Part shown: in pieces, positions 32,632-48,954 of the stretch
Layout of the letters: every line of letters starts with the position of its first letter
Position numbering within the stretch: position 1 is the stretch's first letter
Assembly: GCA_015063645.1 (NCBI GenBank)
Contig: SVTS01000003.1
Coordinates: 1 to 64,000 of the forward strand
Length of the DNA: 64,000 bases
Direction: 5' to 3'
Source: Oscillospiraceae bacterium
GTDB lineage: Bacteria > Bacillota > Clostridia > Oscillospirales > CAG-272
Position numbers and translations under genes: made by a program
Notes under the pieces: model-generated
Told to the model about the DNA's origin: nothing
The model's input: the letters and a program-made list of their open reading frames with translations, nothing else
Databases searched by the model: none

Positions 32632-35600
32632 TCAGTTTTCCAGCATACGTACAACGGGATCATAAGTAAATCCAAAATAGGTTGTATACTGAATCCATAC
32701 ATACTTATAGGATGTACTATAAGGATAGGTACCAACAGGAATATCAAACGAATGAAAAATTGATGAATCAGAAATCGTAATTGAATCACTGCTGGTATAA
32801 TATGAACCATAGGCAGTATCAAAAGTAGTGTTTGTTACATTTGATTCTGTCGAATTCGTAAATACATACTTAACCACACCAGAATACGGAACTCTGAATG
32901 CAATACTGTCCCCAGCTTGGAATGGATCATATACAAATCCGTTAGCAGTGATCGAAGAACTGCCTGTTCCCGTACCTGTCCCCGGGTATCCGGAACCGCT
33001 GCTCGAAGTAAGGATAAACTTGGGGGATGTAAGTGTACCCGCTGTTGTTACCATCCAAACAGTCAAATACTTTTCGGTTGTGTCTACTGTCAGTGTAAGG
33101 GATCTGGAGGAACCGGTTGAAGTAACAGTTGTTTTCCCCCCCTTGCCGATAGAAACAAGCAATCCTGATAGTTCATTATAGTTAGAAGCACCTGCTACCG
33201 CTCCTATTTTGAACATCTCCAGCCAATCATTAATGTCATTTGTATCAGAATAACTATAGTACAATGTACCAGTTACCGCAGGATTATAATACAGACTGTA
33301 CCCGTTCAAATACGGAGTAGAATTAAATGCTTCCTGCATATAGCTGGAACCGCCACCAGTACTGCCTCCGCCTACACGGAGACAGACAGGTTTATAGTAA
33401 CCGCCAGTACCGCCCTCAGCATTCTGAAACATAACAACCACATATGGATATCCAGAAGGATTACTTATCGTATACAGACTCTGTGAGTCCCTGCCAATGC
33501 TTGTACTTAGCGTTCCTCTCAGTCTTTCCAATGTTGAACTGTTATACATTGAGAAAAATGCATTCACTGTAGTGGGGGTATAATTGGTTGAATTGGTGAA
33601 GTAATAATAAATCGTTCCATATTCCATGGTACTGAATGACAGGGTGGGGTAGCCTGATGCGGTCGATGCAGCGGATACTGTCGGGGTTACAGCAAAACCG
33701 GTGGACGCCATAGAATAGCCGGAGGTACCATCTGTCTTGAGATAAATCGGCTCATAGATATTTCCCACATCATCCTGGAAGATAATTGCAATAAATTCGG
33801 GAAGTTCATCTTCGGGAAAATCATTAATGACAATATACTCCGCCTTATTGGCTGTAACTACCTTATGATTATTGTTGCCAGCACCAAACAATGCGTTTGC
33901 AATAATACTATCGACATCCAGTTCTTCATCCTTTGAATCAGTGTAGTAATAGAATATATTACCATTCTTTCTGGCAGTAAAGTCAATCTGGTGAGAAACC
34001 GTAAACACACTGTACATGGGACCTGCGAGGAAGAGATCACCAACTTCTATCTGTGTAATATCCACTTTAGCGAGCGGCACAACGATCGGCTTGTAGTTCT
34101 GACCGTTGACACTCATCATCAGTGCCAAATACTTATAAGTTGTCTGTGTGGTAGCTGCAAGATTTGTCTGCAGCGCAGCAGAACTGAAACTGCTGGTTGT
34201 AATATAACCACCGGTTTTGGATGCCAGGTAAGAACTGACGGAATTCTCATAATTTCGCAGGAACACATCTGCATTGGCAACGCTGGTGCTGTTGGTCATG
34301 TAATAATATACTCTGGAAGAGTACGATGTATTCGGCGTCAGATAGAAATATCCGTTTGCCACAGAAACTGTAGGAACTGCATTGAAACCGGTTCCAGTCA
34401 GATCAAGAGCAACACCCGAAGTAGAAACCACCACAGGATTATACCGGGTAGTACCGGAGGTAAGCCGGAGCACTACATACGGGTAGCTGGATGCAGAAAC
34501 ATTCTTGCCGATCATCAGCGTAGCAGATTTGCCGGCGGTGACAGTGGCAGCACCGGTCATTGCCGTATCCGCCAGTGCAAGATTGGTATCAAACTGTGCT
34601 GCGGAGGGTTCTACGTTGCTGGAGGAGAAATAATACTGCAGCGTACCGGTATTGGCGGCATTATAGCTCAGCGCAATTCCGTCTGCGGTCAGTGTGCACT
34701 TGGGAGTGGAGCTGAAGCCGTTGCCCAGGGAAGAAACGGTTGCCTTAGCGGGAACCAGGACGGGCTGGTAGTTCTCACCGATCTTCTCTTCCAGCATTAC
34801 TGCGATATACGCATAATTGCTGACGCGGGAGGTGGAGAGAAGCACGGAGCTTGCGCTCTTGCCTGCGCTCACGTCCACTGTTCCCTTATAGGAAGTGGAA
34901 TTTGCGGTATAGGTAGAACTGAAGCTGGATACGGTAGGGACATCGCTGTTATTGGTATAGTAATAGTACAGCGTACCGCCTACAGTAGGAGTATACGCGA
35001 GATAGTGATAGGAATTGCTGGTGGAGACTTCCGGAGCAACGCTGAAGCCGGAAGATGCGCGGTTGGAAATCACCAGCGGATCATAAGAGTTGCCGTTATT
35101 ATCGCGAAGCATAACAATGATATAGGGATATGCCGCAGATGCCATGGCAGTAGCGACATTCTTATCCATTGTTGTCTTGGCAACGGTATAGCTTCCCTTG
35201 ACAGCGGAAGCTTCATGGAAGCTGTCAAACGTTGTCTTGGAGGGAGCCGTCGCATTGGAAGTAAAGTAATAATACAGGGTACCGTTGGCGATAGAAGTCG
35301 AGGTCAAAAAGCAGGAGGATGCGGAAGCATAGCTGGAGGGAACTTCCGTAAATCCGGTATTGGCAGCGGTGGTGCTGCTGCCGGAATACTTGATACCGTC
35401 AAAATGAGCGGTAACACCGGAAGCGAGCTCATAGGTCGTGGGAACCTTATCTGCTTCAAATCCGTCGGCATCCACATACAGTTCTTCAACGACACCGTAA
35501 CCGGTAGCGGAAGAATTCTTGGCATCCTTCTCTACTGTCAGCTTACCGATCACAGTACGGGAGGAAACCTCGATACGACCGGGGGTCTTCAGCTGTACTT

Positions 35601-36486
35601 CGCCGATATCCAGACCGCTGCTCATGGTGATATAGGTGGTAGCACCGCTGACAGCGGAATCCACGATAATCTTCTTTACATCGGTATCATCCAGATCTAC
35701 GGTAGCGGTACCGCGGATGATCAGTTCTCCAATATCACAGTCCTCCAGGACAACCTTACCGCCGGAAGCGCCTTCGGTGATGATAAGGCGGTCGGTGATG
35801 CGGGCGTCACGAACGGTGACGTTAGACTTGGTGATCACGCCGTTGCCGGCTGCTGCAGTCAGATCGGTGCCTTCCTGGCTGCCGCGGAAGATCGTACCGA
35901 CGGCACGGTGCAGGATGGCGGCTGCCTCACGGCGCTGCAGAGTAGCATCGGGGTCAAAATTACCGTTATCTCTGCCCTTGAAGAGACCTTCGTAAGTTGC
36001 CTGCAGGACATAATCCCTGTAGGAAAGCTTGATCTTCGAGAAGTCGGGATATGTAGAGGACGGAGCGGCATTATCGGGATCCAGATCCAGATAACGAACC
36101 AGCAGAGCGGCAGCCTCCTGACGGCTCAGCTGACCATTGGGATTCATGGAGGCGCCGTAATTCAGAAGGAATCCCTGTGCGGCGGCTCTCTGGATATAGG
36201 GATAGTACCAATCGCCGGATTTTACATCCGAATAATTGATTGTGGTGGTTGCCGACAGACCGAAGGTCTCGCACATCATTTTGATGAACTCGGCACGGGT
36301 CACGATACGGGTAGGCTTGAACGTGCCATCTTCCGGATAACCGTTCAGGATGCCCTTGCTGACCATGTATTCAATCTCGTTGATCGCCCAGTCGGTCTCG
36401 ATATCCGGGAACGACGCGGCAACGCTTACGCCGATACATGAAAAGACAAGAAGCACCGACATAAGCGCAGATACGATTCTTTTCAT
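32632..36486 (-). CDS. S-layer homology (SLH) domain surface protein with beta-helix-like region and eight C-terminal repeats
   Basis: Signal peptide MKRIVSALMSVLLVFSCIGVSVAAS; three SLH modules (FPDIETDWAINEIEYMVSKGILNGYPEDGTFKP, YSDVKSGDWYYPYIQRAAAQGFL, FSKIKLSYRDYVLQATYEGLF); GTLYYYYT-type repeats; GGAGAAAG RBS. Confidence 0.9.
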   Translation of the reverse strand: MKRIVSALMSVLLVFSCIGVSVAASFPDIETDWAINEIEYMVSKGILNGYPEDGTFKPTRIVTRAEFIKMMCETFGLSATTTINYSDVKSGDWYYPYIQRAAAQGFLLNYGASMNPNGQLSRQEAAALLVRYLDLDPDNAAPSSTYPDFSKIKLSYRDYVLQATYEGLFKGRDNGNFDPDATLQRREAAAILHRAVGTIFRGSQEGTDLTAAAGNGVITKSNVTVRDARITDRLIITEGASGGKVVLEDCDIGELIIRGTATVDLDDTDVKKIIVDSAVSGATTYITMSSGLDIGEVQLKTPGRIEVSSRTVIGKLTVEKDAKNSSATGYGVVEELYVDADGFEADKVPTTYELASGVTAHFDGIKYSGSSTTAANTGFTEVPSSYASASSCFLTSTSIANGTLYYYFTSNATAPSKTTFDSFHEASAVKGSYTVAKTTMDKNVATAMASAAYPYIIVMLRDNNGNSYDPLVISNRASSGFSVAPEVSTSNSYHYLAYTPTVGGTLYYYYTNNSDVPTVSSFSSTYTANSTSYKGTVDVSAGKSASSVLLSTSRVSNYAYIAVMLEEKIGENYQPVLVPAKATVSSLGNGFSSTPKCTLTADGIALSYNAANTGTLQYYFSSSNVEPSAAQFDTNLALADTAMTGAATVTAGKSATLMIGKNVSASSYPYVVLRLTSGTTRYNPVVVSTSGVALDLTGTGFNAVPTVSVANGYFYLTPNTSYSSRVYYYMTNSTSVANADVFLRNYENSVSSYLASKTGGYITTSSFSSAALQTNLAATTQTTYKYLALMMSVNGQNYKPIVVPLAKVDITQIEVGDLFLAGPMYSVFTVSHQIDFTARKNGNIFYYYTDSKDEELDVDSIIANALFGAGNNNHKVVTANKAEYIVINDFPEDELPEFIAIIFQDDVGNIYEPIYLKTDGTSGYSMASTGFAVTPTVSAASTASGYPTLSFSTMEYGTIYYYFTNSTNYTPTTVNAFFSMYNSSTLERLRGTLSTSIGRDSQSLYTISNPSGYPYVVVMFQNAEGGTGGYYKPVCLRVGGGSTGGGSSYMQEAFNSTPYLNGYSLYYNPAVTGTLYYSYSDTNDINDWLEMFKIGAVAGASNYNELSGLLVSIGKGGKTTVTSTGSSRSLTLTVDTTEKYLTVWMVTTAGTLTSPKFILTSSSGSGYPGTGTGTGSSSITANGFVYDPFQAGDSIAFRVPYSGVVKYVFTNSTESNVTNTTFDTAYGSYYTSSDSITISDSSIFHSFDIPVGTYPYSTSYKYVWIQYTTYFGFTYDPVVRMLEN

Positions 36487-36555
36487 TTTCTTTCTCCAAT
36501 TCATTTTATTATAATCCGCATACTTTGACGCGGATAGACGCTCTTTTGTTCCGTA

Positions 36556-37295: not shown

Positions 37296-39758
37296 TCAGT
37301 ACGGATCGTCGTCAAAAGCGGAGAACAGAGTACCGTCCTCTTTTTTTTTGCGGATCGTTTCAATCAGGGAATCCAGCTGCTCAAACGCCCACAGGATCGT
37401 GCGGAACAGATAGTAGGAGAGCAGAATCAGCACGCCCAGCACCAGTCCGCCGCCATCGGTCAGCGGCACAAAATCGAACACTTTTCCAAATGCCGCAAAG
37501 CACAGAATCACCGCCAGCGCCATGGCACCGATCACACCGCCGCGCTTCCAGTTCAGAGGACGGCAGACTTCAAAGAGAACGAGCAGTCCGATACCGGACA
37601 GAATCGCCGCCGCCATGGTACAGAGTTGATCGTTGGGGAAGGTGAACGCCGCGGCGAATGCCTGCAGAAGAAGGACCACCGCCAGATTGGCCAGTCCGCC
37701 GGGAAGCGCCTGTCTCAGCACGTTGAGCATGAAACGTCCCGTAATCCGTTCTCTGTTCGGCTCCAATGCCAGGAAAAACGCCGGCACGCCGATAGTCAGC
37801 GCGCTGATCATGGACAACTGGATTGGCACAAGGGGATACGGCAGATTGAACAGAAGAGTAAACAGCGACAGCAGGAAGGAGAAGATATTCTTCACCAGGA
37901 ACAGCGTAGCGGCGCGCTGGATGTTATTGATTACCCGGCGTCCCTCGCCAACCACGTAGGGCATGGAGCGGAAATTGGAATCCATCAGCACCAGCTGTGC
38001 CACATGGCAGGCAGCATCACTGCCGGAGGCCATGGCGATGCCGCAGTCGGCATCTTTCAGCGCCAGAACGTCATTGACACCGTCGCCGGTCATGGCAACG
38101 GTATGTCCGGCAGCCTGCAGGGCACGCACCAGCTTCCTCTTCTGATCCGGCGTAACGCGGCCGAAAACGGTGTACTTCTCCACCGCCTCCGCGTAATCCT
38201 CATCTTCCTTCAGCCTTGCGGCGTCGATATATTTCCCCGCGTCGCGGATGCCTGCCTGACGGGCAACCTCTGCAACGGTGCGGGGATTATCACCGGAGAT
38301 AACCTTGACAGTCACGCCCTGCTCGGCAAAATAGCGGAACGTATCCGGTGCATCGGGACGGATACGGTTGGTCAGCGGAATCAATGCCATGGGATAGACA
38401 CGGCTCGGCTGCAGAGGGGCAGTATTATCCGGTATACCGTCATACTGCGCCAGAAGCAGCACACGGTAGCCGGATGCTGCAAGCACATCCACCGCTTCCT
38501 TCAGAAGCCCGAAGCGGGCGCCCATAATGAAATCCGGTGCGCCGATCACATAGCTGCCCTGTCCTTCAAAGACAGCGGCGCTCCATTTGGTCGCGGAGGT
38601 AAACGGAACACGGGCACGGCAGTGCCAGTCCGTCTCACCGCGGTAATATTCAATCATGGCGCGTTCCGTATCGTTTTCTCCATCGGGCAGATTATAGTAT
38701 GCGCTGAGCACAGACTTCACCCGGCTCATGGGGAACTCCTTCTCCGCAAGGAGCACCGGATCGCCTGCCTTCATCACTTCTTCGGTGATGGTGCCCGTTT
38801 TATCCACGCAGAGCACATCCACACGGGCAAGGGTTTCGATGCAGTTCATATCCTGCGTCAGCACCTTGCGGCGGGAGAGACGGATCACACTGACCGCCAG
38901 CGCCACGCTGGTGAGCAGGAACAGTCCCTCCGGAATCATGCCGATCAGTGCCGCGACAGTGGATTCCACCGCCGATTTCACCGGCATTTCCAGAACAAAA
39001 TACTGCTTCATGAACAGGGCGATACCCATGGGAACAAGTGCGATGCCGATGACGCGGATCAGCTTTGTCAGCGACTGCATCATCTCGGATTTCGCCATGC
39101 GGACATTTTTCTTCGCCTCGATCGTCAGGCGGGAGACATAGGACTGGGCGCCCACTTTGGTCAGCCTTGCCCGGCACCGTCCAGCCACGACAAAGGAGCC
39201 GGAAAGCAGCGCATCCCCTTCGGCTTTGGCGATCTGATCCGCCTCACCGGTAACCAGCGCCTCATTCAGCTGTGCACTGCCGGATACGACAATGGCATCG
39301 GCGCAGATCTGGTCCCCCGGACCGAATTCCACGATATCATCCCGCACAAGCAAATCAGAGGGAATCATCTGCTTTTTGCCGCTCCGTATGGCGGTGTATT
39401 TGTGTACGCTCATCAGCGTCATTTTATCGATCGTCCGCTTGGAGCGGATCTCCTGAAAGATACCGATGAGGGTATTGGCGATGGCGATCACCAGAAAGAA
39501 CAGATCCTTATAGGAGCCTACGATAATCAGGCAGACCGCCAGAATTACGAAAATAAAGTTAAAGAAAGTCAGCGAATGCTGCAGAACAATCTGTTTTTCC
39601 GTTTTGGTGGGCGACTCCACCGGCGTATTGGCAAGTCCGTGTTCCCGGCGAAGGAGCGCTTCGTCATCAGTGAGCCCATCATCCGGGGAAGCTTCTCTGA
39701 CGGAAACTGCCTGAGGCGAATACAGCAGCGCCTCTTGCTGCGTCTTATGTTTTTTCAT
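37296..39758 (-). CDS. HAD-IC cation-translocating P-type ATPase
   Basis: DVLCVDKTGTITEE, KVISGDNPRTVAEVARQAGI, MTGDGVNDVLALKDADCGIAM. Confidence 0.92.
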   Translation of the reverse strand: MKKHKTQQEALLYSPQAVSVREASPDDGLTDDEALLRREHGLANTPVESPTKTEKQIVLQHSLTFFNFIFVILAVCLIIVGSYKDLFFLVIAIANTLIGIFQEIRSKRTIDKMTLMSVHKYTAIRSGKKQMIPSDLLVRDDIVEFGPGDQICADAIVVSGSAQLNEALVTGEADQIAKAEGDALLSGSFVVAGRCRARLTKVGAQSYVSRLTIEAKKNVRMAKSEMMQSLTKLIRVIGIALVPMGIALFMKQYFVLEMPVKSAVESTVAALIGMIPEGLFLLTSVALAVSVIRLSRRKVLTQDMNCIETLARVDVLCVDKTGTITEEVMKAGDPVLLAEKEFPMSRVKSVLSAYYNLPDGENDTERAMIEYYRGETDWHCRARVPFTSATKWSAAVFEGQGSYVIGAPDFIMGARFGLLKEAVDVLAASGYRVLLLAQYDGIPDNTAPLQPSRVYPMALIPLTNRIRPDAPDTFRYFAEQGVTVKVISGDNPRTVAEVARQAGIRDAGKYIDAARLKEDEDYAEAVEKYTVFGRVTPDQKRKLVRALQAAGHTVAMTGDGVNDVLALKDADCGIAMASGSDAACHVAQLVLMDSNFRSMPYVVGEGRRVINNIQRAATLFLVKNIFSFLLSLFTLLFNLPYPLVPIQLSMISALTIGVPAFFLALEPNRERITGRFMLNVLRQALPGGLANLAVVLLLQAFAAAFTFPNDQLCTMAAAILSGIGLLVLFEVCRPLNWKRGGVIGAMALAVILCFAAFGKVFDFVPLTDGGGLVLGVLILLSYYLFRTILWAFEQLDSLIETIRKKKEDGTLFSAFDDDPY

Positions 39759-40891: not shown

Positions 40892-43543
40892 TCATCGGAA
40901 TTCTTTCAGTTTGGAGGTCAATAGCATACAGCGCGCCGTTTCATGCCAGCTTTCCGGCGTGATCAGCTCCGTTTCACGGGCTATCGCATCGGCGATATAC
41001 TCCGGATTCAGATACTCTGTATTGCCGCAGGCGGTGATCGCTTCCACAACGAGGGTACCGTTATCTGCATCGTACCGCGCCTGCAGTCCCCGCATCAGGG
41101 AAGTAATATCCACTTCTTTTTCGCCGCTCTTGGATTTTTTTATCATGAGCACCGGTGAAGCAAAGCGCTTTTCGATCTGCTCTGCCGCCTCTGCCGACGC
41201 GTGAGGCGTATGGAATATCAGCCGGCAGCGTGCGAAGGCGATCTCCGACAGTTTTGCGGCAGATTCGTAGGCATCCAGGATATCAATCCCGTCCGGTGCC
41301 ACGGCAGTCATCCGTTCTTTGATTTCACTGAGAGACACGTCGGAGCGGACCCGGATATCCAGAATCTCCCGCTCGGATGCGCATCCCACGGAGAGAGGAG
41401 ACGCGAACACCAGCTTCGGACGGGGATTATATCCCTCCGAATAGTACACCGGCAGACCGGAACGGGTCACGATATGCATCATGATCCGCTGCAGATCCAG
41501 ATGTCCGATGAACAGCGCAGGATGCCGCTTGCGGAAGAGAATCCGCACGGGACGGAAGAGTGTTTTTGTGGGATCAATCGGCGGGACAAATCCGGGCAGA
41601 CCCTTGGGCTGTGCCGGCTCAGCCGGCTTCGCAGGAGCTGATGCATCAGGCTTTGCAGCCTTCACAGGAGCATTTCCGCCGCGCATCTTGCCGCCGGGGC
41701 ACCATGTACAGTTCTTCGCATCGGTTATGCCGTCGGCACCGCATCCGGAGCACTGATCGTGACATCCGGGGGTAGGCGTACCCTGCTGTGCCTTGTGGCG
41801 CTCACGGAGCAGATAGGATTTCGACACGCCGCAGTCGATCATATCCCACGGAAGAATCTCGTCATCCGGAATGGAGCGATTGGCATAGAATGCCGGATCC
41901 AGCCCCACACGGCGGAGCACGTCCATCCACTTATCATAACAGAAGTGGTCTTCCCAGGAATCGAAGCGGAAGCCCTCTTTCTGCGCCAGCTCCAGCGCAT
42001 CAGCCAGACGGCGGTCACCGCGGGCAAGCACTGCCTCCATATGGGAAGTACGTGCATCGTGATAATTATAGCGGATCTTACGGTCCGTGATTTTGGAGGC
42101 AATGAATTTCTGTTTTGCCAGCAGTGTCTCCATATCCTCCTGCGGCTCCCACTGGAACGGCGTCATCGGCTTCGGAATAAAGCATGCCACGCTGATGGTG
42201 ACCTGCGGCGGACGGGCACGGTTGCGTCCCGGCGTACGGTAGAATTCATCCAGCACATGCGCCGCCAGATCGGCGATTCCCGCCAGATCCTCCTCCGTCT
42301 CTCCGGGCAGACCGTTCATAAAATACAGCTTTACCTGATTCTTGCCCGCTTCAAATGCGATGCGGCAGGCGCCCAGGATTTCCTCTTCGGTGACGTTTTT
42401 ATTGATCACGTCTCTGAGGCGCTGTGTGCCCGCCTCAGGCGCAAATGTGAGGGTGGATGTCCGGACACTGGATACCTTATCCATCAGTTCTTTCGTAAAG
42501 CTGTCGGCGCGCAGGGACGGCAGTGCCAGATTGATCTTCTTCTCATCCGTCCACTCCAGCAGGCGGTCGGTCAGCTCATCAATTTCGGTATAATCGCTGA
42601 TGGACAGGGACATCAGGGAAATCTCGTCATAGCCGGTATTTTCAGCGGTTTCTCTCGCCAGATCGCAGAGAACGGGGACGGATTTTTCACGCACCGGGCG
42701 GGAAATAAATCCTGCCTGACAGAAGCGGCATCCGCGCACGCAGCCGCGGTACACTTCCAGCGTCACGCGATCCTGCACCGTCTCGATCAGCGGCATTACA
42801 GGACAGGTGGGCACCACGGTATGATCCACATCAGCGACGATGCGTTTTTTTACCTTGGCGGGAACATCGTCATATTTCGGCGTGATCGATGCGATTGTTC
42901 CGTCTTCCTTGTAGCAAATCTCATACAGAGACGGCACGTAGAAGCCCTCCAGCCGTGCCGCGGCACGCAGGAATGCTTCCTTTGTGAACGAGCCGTCCTT
43001 CTTCATGGACAGATACAGCCGCGCAAGCTCCGGCAGGGCTTCCTCACCCTCGCCAATGGAGAATATATCCACAAACGGCGCCATGGGCTCTCCGTTATAT
43101 GCGCAGGGACCGCCCGCCAGAATGATCGGCGCATCCTCACCGCGATCTGCGGAACGCAGGGGCAATCCTGCCAGATCCATCATATTCAGCACGTTTGTGT
43201 AGCACATCTCATACTGCAGTGTGAACGCAACAATATCGAATTCGCCCACACCGTCTCCGCTTTCGTGGGTAAAGAGCGGAATGCCGCGGCGGCGCATTTC
43301 GTCCTCCATATCCGTCCACGGTGCATAGACACGCTCGCACCATACGCCGTCCACTTCATTCAGCGCCTGCGTGAGAATCCGCATGCCCAGATTGGACATA
43401 CCGATCTCATAGGTATCCGGGAAACAGAATGCAACGCGAAGCTGTACCTCATCGGGATTCTTGAACACCGATCCCGGCTCACCGCCGCTGTATCTGCCCG
43501 GTTTTTCCACATCTGCCAGAAAAGCACGGATGTCATCTCTCAT
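40892..43543 (-). CDS. TIGR03960 family B12-binding-like radical SAM protein fused to TIGR03936 (DUF2344)
   Basis: YRGCVRGCRFCQAGFISRPVREKS; FRKRHPALFIGHLDLQRIMMHIVTRSGLPVYYSEGYNPRPKLVFASPLSVG. Confidence 0.9.
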   Translation of the reverse strand: MRDDIRAFLADVEKPGRYSGGEPGSVFKNPDEVQLRVAFCFPDTYEIGMSNLGMRILTQALNEVDGVWCERVYAPWTDMEDEMRRRGIPLFTHESGDGVGEFDIVAFTLQYEMCYTNVLNMMDLAGLPLRSADRGEDAPIILAGGPCAYNGEPMAPFVDIFSIGEGEEALPELARLYLSMKKDGSFTKEAFLRAAARLEGFYVPSLYEICYKEDGTIASITPKYDDVPAKVKKRIVADVDHTVVPTCPVMPLIETVQDRVTLEVYRGCVRGCRFCQAGFISRPVREKSVPVLCDLARETAENTGYDEISLMSLSISDYTEIDELTDRLLEWTDEKKINLALPSLRADSFTKELMDKVSSVRTSTLTFAPEAGTQRLRDVINKNVTEEEILGACRIAFEAGKNQVKLYFMNGLPGETEEDLAGIADLAAHVLDEFYRTPGRNRARPPQVTISVACFIPKPMTPFQWEPQEDMETLLAKQKFIASKITDRKIRYNYHDARTSHMEAVLARGDRRLADALELAQKEGFRFDSWEDHFCYDKWMDVLRRVGLDPAFYANRSIPDDEILPWDMIDCGVSKSYLLRERHKAQQGTPTPGCHDQCSGCGADGITDAKNCTWCPGGKMRGGNAPVKAAKPDASAPAKPAEPAQPKGLPGFVPPIDPTKTLFRPVRILFRKRHPALFIGHLDLQRIMMHIVTRSGLPVYYSEGYNPRPKLVFASPLSVGCASEREILDIRVRSDVSLSEIKERMTAVAPDGIDILDAYESAAKLSEIAFARCRLIFHTPHASAEAAEQIEKRFASPVLMIKKSKSGEKEVDITSLMRGLQARYDADNGTLVVEAITACGNTEYLNPEYIADAIARETELITPESWHETARCMLLTSKLKEFR

Positions 43544-43612
43544 AGCTGTATATACACGGGAAACTTCACACAAGTTCCCCGTATCCTTTCACATAAAGTT
43601 TTGGAAGAGGGG

Positions 43613-43650
43613 TACGGGGAGGGACTTTTTTCAAAAAGTCCCTCCCCGTA
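43613..43650 (-). terminator. Terminator hairpin with GGGGAGGGACTTT core
   Basis: 18-nt arms tacggggagggacttttt/aaaaagtccctccccgta; related copy at 57354. Confidence 0.65.
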
Positions 43651-43654
43651 TTTC

Positions 43655-46078
43655 TTATTTAATATACAATTTCGTTGTCAGTGCGGCGGGGATCATCCAG
43701 AACAGCTGATTTGCCACAACAAGCCAGGATCCGATTGCACTGAGATTGCCCGACAGGGATACGATGAACATGATCGTCAGCGTGACGATTGCTGCGATAA
43801 TGCTGATGATCATATTGGTACGCTTGACGCTGAGCACCGTATCGCACAGGGAAACGACCTGAAGCAACCCCTTGGTGGAACCGCGGGTCACGATACCGCT
43901 GTCTGCGCGCTCACGATCGGCATCGCCGTCATGAAGCTTCACAACCTTCAGCGGGTACTTCTTGCCCTTCACCTTGGAGAAGATCATCTCTTCGTCGATG
44001 TTGGGATCCAGAGTCTTCACGCATACGCAGGTGCCGTTATTGGCGAACTGGCGCACGATGAATTCAAAGTCCGCATCCATGATGTACTTGATATACATCT
44101 TAGCGACGTACTTGCCGTCACGCACCATGTACATGATGCTGAGATCGCCCTCGATGTAGGAATCCTCCTCCACCGTTTCCGCAGGAAGTTCAATTCCAAG
44201 CTCTGTCAGTACGGAAGAACGGCCGAACACGATGCTGCGTCCGTCCACGCTGGCTTCCAGATAGCCGACGCCGGCGCTGAGGATTTCCACGTCATCGGAA
44301 TGTCCCATTTCGATGGTAGCAACATCAAACACATCGCCAAGCGGACCGCCTGCGGCGGAGAATACGCTGGCAGCGTAATACAGAATACGGTCGATACGGT
44401 TATTGCCCACGATCTTGATATTCTGTACCTTTACACCGTAGGAGGGGAACACGTTCTTATCATCAAAGGAGATGATGGACGCGCCCGCATATTCCTCAAG
44501 GGAGGATTCGCCCACGATGGTGCTGTCCATTTCATACGCATCCTGATTTGCCTTATAGAAAGGATAGCTGTATGTAAAAAACATGGACATCGGGATCGCA
44601 CCGAGGATTGCCACATAGGCAATGCTGACAGCATCCGCAGCGGATGCACCGCCGACTGCCGCGAAAATCGCCAGAAGAACTGCGGCGGCGGTGATCACCG
44701 TCAGCATGGCGGTTACGTAAACGCGGGTGGAATTCAGGATAGCTGTGGTACGGGAGAAATATCCGTCCACGAAATCCGCCTGTTCAATCTGCAGAACATC
44801 CGGATTGTCCTCATCCAGCGCGCCGAACGCCTCGCTCTCAGGAGAAGAAGCAGATGAAGGAATGCGGCGGAAGACGAATTTCTGTTTTTTGGAGGAAACA
44901 ATATTAAAGGAGAAAATCTCGCGCTTGGTATTCAGATAGGAGAAAACCAGTGCCATCAGTGCGCAGGCGGCAACGGCGAAGTTATACACCGGCGGTTCCA
45001 CGCCCTGTACGGACAGCATAGCGGCAATGGTGGAATACAGCACGCCGAACACAGCAAGGACAGCAAGAACGCTTTCCGGTGTCGGGCGACCGGTGATCAG
45101 ATTCCGCACGCCGGCGAAAATCTGCTCATAGGCAACTGCGCAGGCAAGCAGCATGATCTGCAGGCTTACCATGATATAGACAACGGGATATACAGCGGGA
45201 TCCAGCGCACCGGCAAACTGCACGCCGAAGATGGAAATATTCTCGAAGAAGAACGCAAGCACTGCCAGGAAAGCGGCAGCAGCCATCTTGATCTTGAGCG
45301 AAGTGAGAGAATACTTATAGGCAGCGGCAATCTTGGGTGTCTGGGAGCGCTCGGTATATTCATACTCAACAACGCGGCGCTGCTGCTCCTCGTATTCCTT
45401 CGCTTCCGCATCATTGCGGGCAGCTACCTTATCGGCGGTACCAACGCCGGCTTTTTTATCCAGCTGATCTTCCATGCCCCAGCCGACGAAGAGATTCTGC
45501 TCCGTATCATCCACTTCCTCGGGAGAAAGCTCATCGGGATCAACGGCGTCTTCTTCCGCTTCGGCTGATTTTTCGGGCTCCTTGGATTCTTTTTTGTCCG
45601 CGGAAGGATCATCCAGCCCCAGAGCCATCAGCAATTCAGGATCAATCTCCTCACGGGGCGCCTCCTCGGAAATCTCCTCCGCGATTTTGATATCTTCATC
45701 CTCATTCTCATCGGAATCTTCCTGTGCAGAGGAAATCTGATCAAAGATTTCGCTGTCAGGTGCCGCAGGTTCTTCCTTTTTCCGGGAAGAACGCAGGCGC
45801 GCAAAGAAGCCCTGTTTTTTCGGCGGATCCTCCTCCGGATAGTCCTCGTCGATAACTTCCTCTTCCTCCTCCGGAACAATCTCTGCCGGAGCGGGTTTCT
45901 GCGCTTTCTTCGGGTTCTCGGACGCAGGTACCTCCTCCTCAGACTCGGCAAATTCGGGGAGATATTTCCGCAGAAGCTCCTGAATCTCCAGATCGCTGTC
46001 GGTATTCACATCCGGACTGGAGGATTTTACGTTTGTTTTCTGCGCGGCGTTCGATGCGGATTTATTTTTCTCATTCAT
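43655..46078 (-). CDS. Membrane protein resembling a catalytically degenerate P-type ATPase, with acidic N-terminal region
   Basis: C-terminal order of segments resembles P1-type ATPases; ISFDDKNVFPSYGVKV in place of DKTGT; HDGDAD in place of GDGxND. Confidence 0.65.
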   Translation of the reverse strand: MNEKNKSASNAAQKTNVKSSSPDVNTDSDLEIQELLRKYLPEFAESEEEVPASENPKKAQKPAPAEIVPEEEEEVIDEDYPEEDPPKKQGFFARLRSSRKKEEPAAPDSEIFDQISSAQEDSDENEDEDIKIAEEISEEAPREEIDPELLMALGLDDPSADKKESKEPEKSAEAEEDAVDPDELSPEEVDDTEQNLFVGWGMEDQLDKKAGVGTADKVAARNDAEAKEYEEQQRRVVEYEYTERSQTPKIAAAYKYSLTSLKIKMAAAAFLAVLAFFFENISIFGVQFAGALDPAVYPVVYIMVSLQIMLLACAVAYEQIFAGVRNLITGRPTPESVLAVLAVFGVLYSTIAAMLSVQGVEPPVYNFAVAACALMALVFSYLNTKREIFSFNIVSSKKQKFVFRRIPSSASSPESEAFGALDEDNPDVLQIEQADFVDGYFSRTTAILNSTRVYVTAMLTVITAAAVLLAIFAAVGGASAADAVSIAYVAILGAIPMSMFFTYSYPFYKANQDAYEMDSTIVGESSLEEYAGASIISFDDKNVFPSYGVKVQNIKIVGNNRIDRILYYAASVFSAAGGPLGDVFDVATIEMGHSDDVEILSAGVGYLEASVDGRSIVFGRSSVLTELGIELPAETVEEDSYIEGDLSIMYMVRDGKYVAKMYIKYIMDADFEFIVRQFANNGTCVCVKTLDPNIDEEMIFSKVKGKKYPLKVVKLHDGDADRERADSGIVTRGSTKGLLQVVSLCDTVLSVKRTNMIISIIAAIVTLTIMFIVSLSGNLSAIGSWLVVANQLFWMIPAALTTKLYIK

Positions 46079-46107: not shown

Positions 46108-46944
46108 TCACGGTTTCGGAGTTCGCTGCATCCGGGCTGCGTGACACAGAATCACGGAAGCGGCTGTGGAAACGTTCAGAGAATTGACCTGCCCATACAT
46201 GGGGATGGATACAATAAAATCGCTTTTTTCACGGACAAGACGGCTGACGCCTTCTCCCTCGCTGCCCAGCACAACGGCGACGCCCGTATCCCAATCGGTT
46301 TCGTAATAGGGCGTACCGCCTGCTTCGGCGGTGTAGATCCAGAGACCAAGTTCCTTCAGTTTTTCCACGGCGGAGGCAATGTTCTGCACCTTGGCGACGG
46401 CCATATGCTCCAGCGCACCGGCGGAAGCAGTTGCCACCACGGGGGTAAGTCCCACGGCATGCCTCTTAGGAAGCACGATACCGTGCGCACCGGCGCATTC
46501 CGCGCATCGGATCACGGCACCGAGATTATGGGGATCCTCAATTCCGTCACAGACAACCACAAGGGGACGCTCACCCTTTTCCCGGGCGATTTCCACGATG
46601 GTTTCCAGATCCACGTACTGCTTCTCAGCCGCCATAGCGGCAACGCCCTGGTGATGTGCGCCGCAGGTCATGGTATCCAGTTTGGCGTTATCCACTTCGA
46701 TCACCGGAATACCGAGGCGGATCGCCTCAGCGACAATCACGGTGATGGAGCCCTCACGGTCACCAGCTCGGACGAAGATTTTATCCACAGAACGCCCGGT
46801 TTTCAGCAGTTCACGCACGGAATTCCGTCCTGCGACGACATTTTCCGGCGGCGCCTGCGCCTCACGGCGGGAATCATCCTGCCGGCGGGCGGGGGTATTT
46901 TTGTTTCTTGAAAAATTCTTTTTCTTATTCGGGTAGTTATTCAT
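46108..46944 (-). CDS. rlmB: 23S rRNA (guanosine-2'-O-)-methyltransferase RlmB (TrmH family)
   Basis: VAGRNSVRELLKTGRSVDKIFV, DGIEDPHNLGAVIRCAECAGAHGIVLPKR, VLGSEGEGVSRLV. Confidence 0.93.
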   Translation of the reverse strand: MNNYPNKKKNFSRNKNTPARRQDDSRREAQAPPENVVAGRNSVRELLKTGRSVDKIFVRAGDREGSITVIVAEAIRLGIPVIEVDNAKLDTMTCGAHHQGVAAMAAEKQYVDLETIVEIAREKGERPLVVVCDGIEDPHNLGAVIRCAECAGAHGIVLPKRHAVGLTPVVATASAGALEHMAVAKVQNIASAVEKLKELGLWIYTAEAGGTPYYETDWDTGVAVVLGSEGEGVSRLVREKSDFIVSIPMYGQVNSLNVSTAASVILCHAARMQRTPKP

Positions 46945-47096
46945 TGTGATATCCGACCACCGGTCGGCCCTTTTCCTTCTCAAATAGACGCAGATATAAG
47001 TACTCTGCATACATTATATCACAAAAAAATGCGTTTGTACATATAATTTTATTTTTTTCTCAAAAAGAATATTTTCCTATGCCGCTTTCCGGCAGA

Positions 47097-47148: not shown

Positions 47149-47427
47149 TTACTGCTGCTCCTTGATGGCTGCAAAGCACTCGCTGCAGTAAACCGGTCTG
47201 TCGCTGGTGGGCTGGAAGGGAACCTTAGCTTCCTTGCCGCATCTTGCGCAAACAGTGGTAAACAGCTCTCTCTGCGTCTTGGTGGCGTTCTTGCGTGCGT
47301 CACGGCAGGTCTTGCAGCGCTGGGGCTCATTCTGGAAGCCCTTCTCTGCGTAGAACTCCTGCTCGCCGGCGGTGAATACGAACTCGTTGCCGCATTCTTT
47401 GCACGTCAGTGTCTTGTCCTGGTACAT
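47149..47427 (-). CDS. Zinc-ribbon domain protein
   Basis: CKECGNEFVFTAGEQEFYAEKGFQNEPQRCKTCRDARK and CARCGKEAKVPFQPTSDRPVYCSEC. Confidence 0.9.
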   Translation of the reverse strand: MYQDKTLTCKECGNEFVFTAGEQEFYAEKGFQNEPQRCKTCRDARKNATKTQRELFTTVCARCGKEAKVPFQPTSDRPVYCSECFAAIKEQQ

Positions 47428-47464
47428 TTCTTCAACCTCGCTTAAAAAATGGATAAAAATTTTT

Positions 47465-47527
47465 GCCCTCGACGGACTTTCACCGTCACCTTTGGAATAC
47501 AACGCTCTGAGATTAAGCTATTCGGGC
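47465..47527 (-). ncRNA. Candidate structured 5' leader RNA (three-way junction with T-loop)
   Basis: Minus RNA: GCCC/GGGC encloses GAAUA/UAUUC and GACGG-UGAAAGU-CCGUC. Confidence 0.45.
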
Positions 47528-47564
47528 TTACATATTAAAAATGCTTTCGCATCTAATATCAAAT

Positions 47565-48146
47565 TCAGTTCTCAAGCAAGCCTTTTATCTTAACACGTAT
47601 CCTGTATACAGCGTTGTGGACGGATTTTTCCGATTTACCGACGCTTAAAGAAATACACTTCACGGACCTGCCACTAATGTACTGCTCAAATATTTTCTTT
47701 TCGTAAGGAGAGAGAACCTGATCAATCCGGTTTTTCAGAGAACCGGATGCATCCCTGGCGGAGGCGATATACAGAGGGTCCTCCACAGGGGACATAACGG
47801 GGGGAGGGGATTTCTTCACTGCACGTTCCCTGCTCGCGGATTTGCGGAGCGCGGAAACAAGAGAATTGCGGATACATATTTTGGCGTAAAGTCCGAAACT
47901 GACGCTTCTCTGGGACAGATTATACGTCTGCGCGGCACGGTACAAAGCAAGCTGTGCTTCCTGCTCCAGATCCTGCACGCCCATCGCGGCGGCATCACCG
48001 AGAGATTCGAAAGACGGCGCAAACCGTGCACTCATGGACTTGACAAGAGGTGCATAATGCTCACTGAGCTGTGCAAAAGCATTCTCATCTCCTGCAGCAA
48101 CTGCTGCAAGAAGCGTTACAAGCTCCTCCTCCAACATTTCCACCAC
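47565..48146 (-). CDS. RNA polymerase sigma factor, sigma-70 family (SigH-like)
   Basis: LSEHYAPLVKSMSARFA...DLEQEAQLALYRAAQTYN; region 4 LSPYEKKIFEQYISGRSVKCISLSVGKSEKSVHNAVYRIRVKIK; start may be 48137. Confidence 0.8.
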   Translation of the reverse strand: MVEMLEEELVTLLAAVAAGDENAFAQLSEHYAPLVKSMSARFAPSFESLGDAAAMGVQDLEQEAQLALYRAAQTYNLSQRSVSFGLYAKICIRNSLVSALRKSASRERAVKKSPPPVMSPVEDPLYIASARDASGSLKNRIDQVLSPYEKKIFEQYISGRSVKCISLSVGKSEKSVHNAVYRIRVKIKGLLEN

Positions 48147-48287
48147 AAATTCGTTACAGATTTATGAATACATTATAGCATGAAATACGGTTTTGTCAAT
48201 AGTTTACCAAAAAATTTTTTAAAAATCTGATATTTTTTGTAAAAAGGCTATCCGGCAGAAATAAACAGCAGCGGAGCTTTCCATATT

Positions 48288-48863
48288 TTATTCAAAAATA
48301 TAGTTTACATCACCGCTGAGCAGCGCAAGGATACCCCGATAGATGATTTCCGGCTTATCGGCGAAGTTCTGCTGGATCCTCTCCAGCATCCGCCGGTCAT
48401 CCACGCGGAGATCCACAGCCAGCACATCTCCGTTTTTATCCTTAATGGAACAGTGGTACAGATACCCGTCGCCCAGGGATTCATAATTCTGATCCACCGC
48501 CGCGCCGAGGCTCTGCAGGGACAGATGACGCAGTGCGCTGCGCGTCCCCTGCTCTCTGACGGTGACCATCAGGTTTTCCCCAAGGACATGAGCCACCTCG
48601 CGCCCGGTATCGGTTATGATATACTTTTCATCGGATTCGCTTCCGGCATGGAGCGGCAGCTGTTCGCCGTCATTTTCCGCCCGGACAACGTGTCCCGCAT
48701 CCACCAGCTCGTAAAACGCATCGGCAAAATCGAAGAACCGGACGATACCGTCCTGCACCACGATGGAGCCGATCGTATTGTAATCCAGCGGATATCCGAT
48801 TTTATCCAGCAGAAACAGAATGAATATTTTTATTTCATTTTTTTCTCGCAATGGCGATGGCAT
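48288..48863 (-). CDS. DUF4364 family protein
   Basis: NEIKIFILFLLDKIGYPLDYNTIGSIVVQDGIVRFFDFADAFYELVDAGHV. Confidence 0.85.
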   Translation of the reverse strand: MPSPLREKNEIKIFILFLLDKIGYPLDYNTIGSIVVQDGIVRFFDFADAFYELVDAGHVVRAENDGEQLPLHAGSESDEKYIITDTGREVAHVLGENLMVTVREQGTRSALRHLSLQSLGAAVDQNYESLGDGYLYHCSIKDKNGDVLAVDLRVDDRRMLERIQQNFADKPEIIYRGILALLSGDVNYIFE

Positions 48864-48892
48864 AGGATTTCCTCCTGAAAATTGCGATAAAA

Positions 48893-48916
48893 ATCGGGAG
48901 GCACAAGCCTCCCGAT
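48893..48916 (-). terminator. Terminator of the oligopeptide-binding protein gene
   Basis: ATCGGGAGGC-TTGT-GCCTCCCGAT-TTTT on the minus strand. Confidence 0.8.
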
Positions 48917-48954
48917 TCATCTTTTATGATAGGGGATTCCCGCGCTCGGGAAAA

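Follow-up and report, generated by a model that had tools for sequence, protein, structure and literature searches.

The locus and its genes

The window, that is, the whole stretch of 64,000 nucleotides that was analysed, carries on its reverse strand a gene for a protein whose N-terminal tail is acidic and whose C-terminal part resembles a P1B-type ATPase, as a sequence-only reading of this DNA had described. The coordinates of this gene, which is referred to here as the pseudo-ATPase gene, and of its parts and immediate neighbours are collected in Table 1. Farther upstream on the same strand, a run of genes at 47149-48920 encodes a DUF4364 protein, a sigma-70-like factor and a treble-clef zinc protein and then leads into rlmB, an arrangement that is conserved in the family to which the window belongs. 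On the opposite strand, a frame of 1032 aa (41759-44857, plus strand) runs antisense to the pseudo-ATPase gene and to its downstream radical SAM neighbour; it looks spurious and driven by composition.

Table 1. Features of the pseudo-ATPase locus (positions in the window; residues of the encoded protein)
Feature	Position	Strand	Residues	Basis
Pseudo-P1B-ATPase gene, ATG start	43655..46078	-	807 aa	Open reading frame, profile match and fold match
Acidic, mostly disordered N-terminal tail, where CopA has its metal-binding HMA domain	45362..46078	-	1-239	pLDDT <50 over most of 1-184
Short conserved tail motif DLEIQELLRKYLPE	45953..45994	-	29-42	Found near the N-terminus of most members across families
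Helices MA, MB, M1, M2	44897..45349	-	244-394	AlphaFold2 helices; profile 256-396 pairs with LpCopA 73-216
A-domain remnant, TGE core deleted	44735..44896	-	395-448	Alignments to rlmB-linked CopA and canonical pumps
IPM at the CPC position	44588..44596	-	495-497	Pro in 124/131, cysteines gone
DDKNV at the DKTGT position	44450..44464	-	539-543	Alignment; family pattern x-D-x-[ND]-[VI]-F-P
GGPL at the nucleotide-binding EHPL position	44339..44350	-	577-580	G577 in 121/132, G578 in 112/132
TLD at the TGD position	44006..44014	-	689-691	T689 in 109/131, D691 in 131/131
Deletion junction, about 30 residues including GDGxND gone	43901..43933	-	716-726	Alignments
Helices M5, M6	43664..43876	-	735-805	AlphaFold2; conserved Q791..W794..P797 where CopA has MxxSS
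rlmB, 23S rRNA G2251 2'-O-methyltransferase, directly upstream	46108..47010	-		TIGR00186, 218 bits, above cut-off
TIGR03960-TIGR03936 radical SAM fusion, downstream neighbour	40892..43573	-	893 aa	Family models

Homology to P1B-type pumps

At the sequence level, a Pfam search with the 807-aa protein returned no matches, and its sole match in NCBIfam was TIGR01525 (heavy-metal P-type ATPase), obtained with an E-value of 3.3e-4 and a score of 19.6 bits that lies far below the cut-off of 346. The same model was weakly matched by 22 of 36 members of the pseudo-ATPase family. When a family profile built from 36 homologues was run against the PDB, it retrieved P1B pumps headed by CopA of L. pneumophila (3rfu, E 1.2e-29), with a match that spans the membrane part together with the P and N domains. 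The alignment to this structure contains no gaps from the proline of CPC to DKTGT, and pairs TLD691 with TGD. An AlphaFold2 model made with 74 natural sequences reached pLDDT values mostly above 90 over residues 190-807, and a Foldseek search of the PDB with this model placed P1B pumps best, over about 680 columns and with a probability of 1.00, 4bbj being among these top matches (E 5.6e-17), although the protein has lost the A-domain core and a portion of the P domain. The TM-scores to these pumps were modest (0.4-0.5), as is expected where domains are absent or differently arranged. Profile and structure comparisons both point to a P-type ATPase fold, incomplete in the A and P domains, and by the family profile the protein is unambiguously homologous to P1B (CopA-type) ATPases.

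Loss of the catalytic and metal-binding motifs

Motif counts come from an alignment comparing 132 non-redundant homologues with 28 sequences that had been classed as intact pumps. Twenty-seven of the latter are genuine; the other one, L179, is a pseudo-ATPase, that is, the 133rd non-redundant homologue, and had been sorted with the pumps because of a chance DKTGS in its tail, outside the P domain. DKTGT is present in the P domain of none of the 133 homologues, which argues against a local mutation or a sequencing error in the window. GDGxND occurs in none of the 132 aligned homologues, whose columns are empty at this place, and the TGE-bearing segment of the A domain is absent from the family alignment. 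CPC or a variant of it in M4 (now xPx) and YN and MxxSS in M5/M6 have likewise been lost, and the His-Pro nucleotide motif of the N domain, EHPL, is replaced by GGPL. A direct alignment to an intact relative, a CopA encoded next to rlmB, gives the same losses.

The comparison with CopA, the Cu+-exporting P1B-1 pump (LpCopA 3rfu/4bbj; TIGR01525), summarizes what remains and what does not. Like CopA, the pseudo-ATPase has the fold, the helix order MA, MB, M1-M6 and the shell of the P and N domains, and it keeps the proline of CPC, the T and D of TGD and the glycine of the GN motif of the N domain. Unlike CopA, it lacks the HMA domain, the TGE core, CPC, DKTGT, EHPL, GDGxND, MxxSS and YN, and possesses the acidic tail, which across the family has a median length of 297 aa and a net charge of -59. 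In M5/M6 a new pattern is conserved, with Q791 in 104, W794 in 124 and P797 in 116 of 131 sequences. The short motif of the tail was also considered as an element common to other cell proteins, an idea that was discarded when only the pseudo-ATPase family matched convincingly in the six genomes searched.

From these losses it follows that phosphorylation, dephosphorylation and the canonical binding of nucleotide and metal should all be absent. Judged by its motifs, the protein is almost certainly a dead pump. Its earlier description as such a pump carrying an extra tail has strong support: of the two findings that would have overturned it, a structure search without a P-type ATPase fold and orthologues that retain DKTGT, neither was obtained. 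Other details of that description have to be modified. It had envisaged a full topology with the motifs lost, and the motif loss stands, but the topology is incomplete, since deletions have removed most of the A domain, including its TGE core, and some 30 residues from the P domain. The stretch HDGDADRERADSGI, taken for a decayed GDGxND, is instead the unconserved deletion junction. The proposed degenerate TGD is indeed altered to TLD, but its T689 and D691 are retained.

This retention bears on the possibility of residual or new HAD chemistry, in which D540 and D691 would serve as a phosphatase or metal site, or of an ATP-independent transporter or channel. What the P domain shares with HAD phosphatases is a Rossmann-like HAD core in which D and T/D are found near motifs I and II, and the ends of the former catalytic strands carry conserved residues, namely D691, T689 and D540 (the last in 127/132). 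These three residues could support a residual HAD-like activity, a point that counts against the non-catalytic role favoured below. In HAD phosphatases, however, motif I provides a nucleophilic Asp, and the corresponding position here, D539, is unconserved (D in only 84/132), while motif IV, the GDGxND strand that gives the Mg2+ ligand, is deleted in all members. D540 itself falls at the Lys position of DKTGT in the ungapped alignment. Its candidacy as the retained Asp of DKTGT, or as part of an HAD DxD motif, was rejected on the ungapped count, which puts the non-conserved D539 there. Such a chemical or transport activity is accordingly very improbable.

Distribution and selection

A homologue was found in each of the 39 relatives searched, both close ones and others at the level of the order, and in none of the 39 does the P domain keep the catalytic motifs. 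The named relatives are Clostridia MAGs, some of them labelled Oscillospiraceae or Ruminococcus. Using a scan cut-off chosen to separate the pseudo-ATPase family from true pumps, the gene was found in 141 of 149 genomes of the order, essentially as one copy each. In a class sample of 194 genomes it was present in only seven, all of the same order, and in none of the 187 others. The order is probably Oscillospirales. In phylogenetic trees the members group in a single, fully supported clade on a long stem. At the same time, dN/dS lies between 0.03 and 0.10 in 25 close pairs of pseudo-ATPase genes, and the reading frame is open in nearly all of the 141 genomes. Single in-frame TGA codons were seen in the matches of three loci (L161, L171 and L172).

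The loss of catalytic motifs taken alone could suggest a decaying pseudogene or a sequencing error. This explanation was rejected and is practically negligible in view of the family-wide character of the loss, the low dN/dS, the open frames and the retention of the gene throughout the order. Catalytic loss common to all members is combined with purifying selection, as in a conserved pseudoenzyme family. The order-wide retention of an intact copy devoid of its catalytic parts implies a new job, and it is close to certain that the pseudo-ATPase has been kept by selection for a role other than pumping. With its near-universal presence in a dominant gut order, it is a candidate core gene of common gut bacteria, and it offers a concrete system in which to study how catalysis disappears from a pump and another role takes its place. 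Text searches of a literature that largely omitted subscription journals yielded no account of a pseudoenzyme among P-type ATPases, and a keyword search of a review from 2023 that treats open questions about these pumps (PMC10654040) showed none either. The nearest known parallel is provided by the guanylyl cyclases of apicomplexans, where a P-type ATPase module acts in targeting or regulation and not in plain transport (PMC7858053). However, this appended P4-ATPase domain is eukaryotic, is fused to a cyclase, and retains the catalytic Asp of DKTGT, which it needs for function (PMC7858053).

Genomic context and origin

The conserved neighbour of the pseudo-ATPase gene is rlmB, which immediately precedes it in 124 of 132 loci, most of the others ending at the edge of a contig or locus, and which overlaps it by 4 nt in several families. 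The remaining neighbours vary among over 20 of the order's families and include, by family models, genes for an EF-G-like protein, era, YebC, guaA, an isocitrate dehydrogenase-like protein and TIGR03960 and, as read from the sequence, metG-like and lon-like genes; the EF-G-like gene and era are found among the 3' neighbours. The EF-G-like gene follows the pseudo-ATPase in loci L030, L036, L198 and L205, and in the two tested (L030 and L036) it belongs to the NF009381 EF-G subfamily (NCBIfam). The TIGR03960-TIGR03936 fusion is located downstream in 67 of 80 named loci, mainly of the window's own family, other families being different; it was set aside as a functional partner given that the adjacency is mainly confined to that family.

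The origin of this arrangement is illuminated by a family of another order of the same class (f162). In five of its seven genomes (L272-L276) an intact CopA gene is placed immediately after rlmB, with lysC upstream of rlmB in all seven and thrB-lysC fully visible in L273. These CopAs occupy the same place after rlmB (and lysC) as the pseudo-ATPase and form its nearest branch in the tree, but differ from it in that all catalytic and metal motifs are intact; the one of L276 shares 15% identity with the pseudo-ATPase of the window over 581 columns. Within the order, the arrangement thrB-lysC-rlmB-pseudoATPase is seen in one family (f13, L030), and the lysC context is common to only two or three families. 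With a distant P-type ATPase as the root, an initial tree did not place the pseudo-ATPase family; in a 67-sequence tree that included the CopAs of class and order, the pseudo clade was sister to the rlmB-linked CopAs, with a weak UFBoot of 63. Gene position and tree agree, and on these comparisons the pseudo-ATPase is likely to have arisen in place by decay of an rlmB-linked copA. An intact CopA-like pump is encoded elsewhere in 52 of 59 genomes of the order, and this second pump would have freed the rlmB-linked copy. That one locus holds an intact, ancestor-like form in one order and a dead form in another order of the class makes this origin traceable.

A possible role at the membrane

The protein now consists of a membrane domain, a P/N shell stripped of its chemistry and an acidic tail with a conserved motif, a combination that suggests docking. 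A non-catalytic scaffold or regulator seems somewhat more probable than another activity. Motif loss, conservation, selection and co-occurrence with rlmB are observations, while a link to RlmB and a scaffold, like the 'sensor or scaffold' role previously conjectured for the dead pump, are inferences. The reading that best explains the whole, although it falls a little short of being probable, is that of a dead CopA turned in place into a scaffold or regulator at the membrane whose partner would be RlmB or the maturing 50S subunit. An ancestral copA directly after rlmB would have been stripped of the HMA domain, the A-domain core, the phosphorylation, hydrolysis and nucleotide motifs and the metal sites, and would have gained the long acidic cytoplasmic tail, after which strong selection would have maintained the non-pumping protein throughout one Clostridia order. 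The former pump helices would then anchor the protein in the membrane, while the P/N-domain shell and the tail with its short motif may dock a cytosolic partner, for which RlmB or maturing 50S subunits are the foremost candidates. If true, docking of RlmB or the 50S subunit would tie rRNA modification to the membrane. In its most specific form, in which a single event in the order's ancestor turned a copper pump, in place, into an inactive membrane dock for RlmB or the maturing 50S subunit, the proposal is rather unlikely.

The link to RlmB or the 50S subunit is itself doubtful, since the adjacency has a historical explanation and the tail shows no charge complementarity with RlmB. A pairing of the acidic tail with a basic N-terminal extension of RlmB was considered and dropped, given that this extension has a median charge of 0. 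If the position after rlmB was inherited from the copA ancestor, no functional link is needed, and the pseudo-ATPase could serve an unrelated role, for example in envelope or division scaffolding, and be merely co-transcribed. In favour of such a relic, intact copA already follows rlmB in another order, so that the position requires no new function, and outside the order RlmB exists without the pseudo-ATPase everywhere sampled; RlmB was present in 156 of 156 high-quality genomes of the class sample. Against it, the rlmB-pseudoATPase pair has remained stable while the other flanks turned over in more than 20 families. In the sole clearly unlinked case (G024), moreover, the relocated gene has joined another 50S operon, behind rplU-rpmA-obgE (all 50S genes), with rlmB elsewhere. 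A scan for RlmB in the same 149 genomes was positive in 141, and the eight negatives are precisely the eight genomes devoid of the pseudo-ATPase. Four of them (G380, G407, G423 and G451, two of these from one genus) are at least 95% complete, in contrast to the good genomes of the class sample, all 156 of which have RlmB, and the other four are incomplete, leaving only about three independent losses in good genomes. This joint absence is no more than suggestive, as the genes are adjacent and one deletion or, in the four incomplete genomes, an assembly gap can remove both. The relic is a minority reading, about as doubtful as the RlmB link.

A different possibility is that the pump has become a sensor or receptor, whose membrane domain or N/P shell would bind a ligand (ion, lipid or nucleotide) at a newly formed site and pass the signal on by way of the tail. 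The new conserved polar and aromatic positions in the membrane (E279, Q307, Q791 and W794), the near-invariant Y665 in the old catalytic shell and the conservation of the tail motif fit with this idea. On the other hand, the canonical nucleotide and metal sites are gone, and the neighbouring genes do not consistently include one for an output domain, a kinase or a transcription factor. A sensor is, on balance, unlikely.

Pseudoenzymes often regulate active relatives, and the pseudo-ATPase might accordingly act as a dominant pseudo-subunit or regulatory partner of the intact CopA, or of another P-type ATPase. The CopA-like pump kept elsewhere by most genomes of the order is compatible with this proposal, but seven of the 59 have no CopA match at the cut-off, including the pseudo-ATPase carriers G024, G028, G035 and G348, and the pseudo-ATPase is not linked to copA. 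In addition, P1B pumps are not known to depend on partner subunits. A regulator of this kind is quite improbable, and the non-catalytic membrane scaffold or regulator described above remains the preferred reading.

The intact P-type ATPase that the sequence-only reading had pointed out nearby, at 37296-39758 on the same strand, is real and has all its motifs. It belongs to another subfamily, being closest to TIGR01647/TIGR01494 and not P1B, and it was rejected as a partner as its proximity is not conserved. On the same strand, positions 32632-36504 encode a secreted protein of 1290 aa that reads like a protein with an S-layer-homology domain and, after it, repeats of a YYYFTNS-type module.
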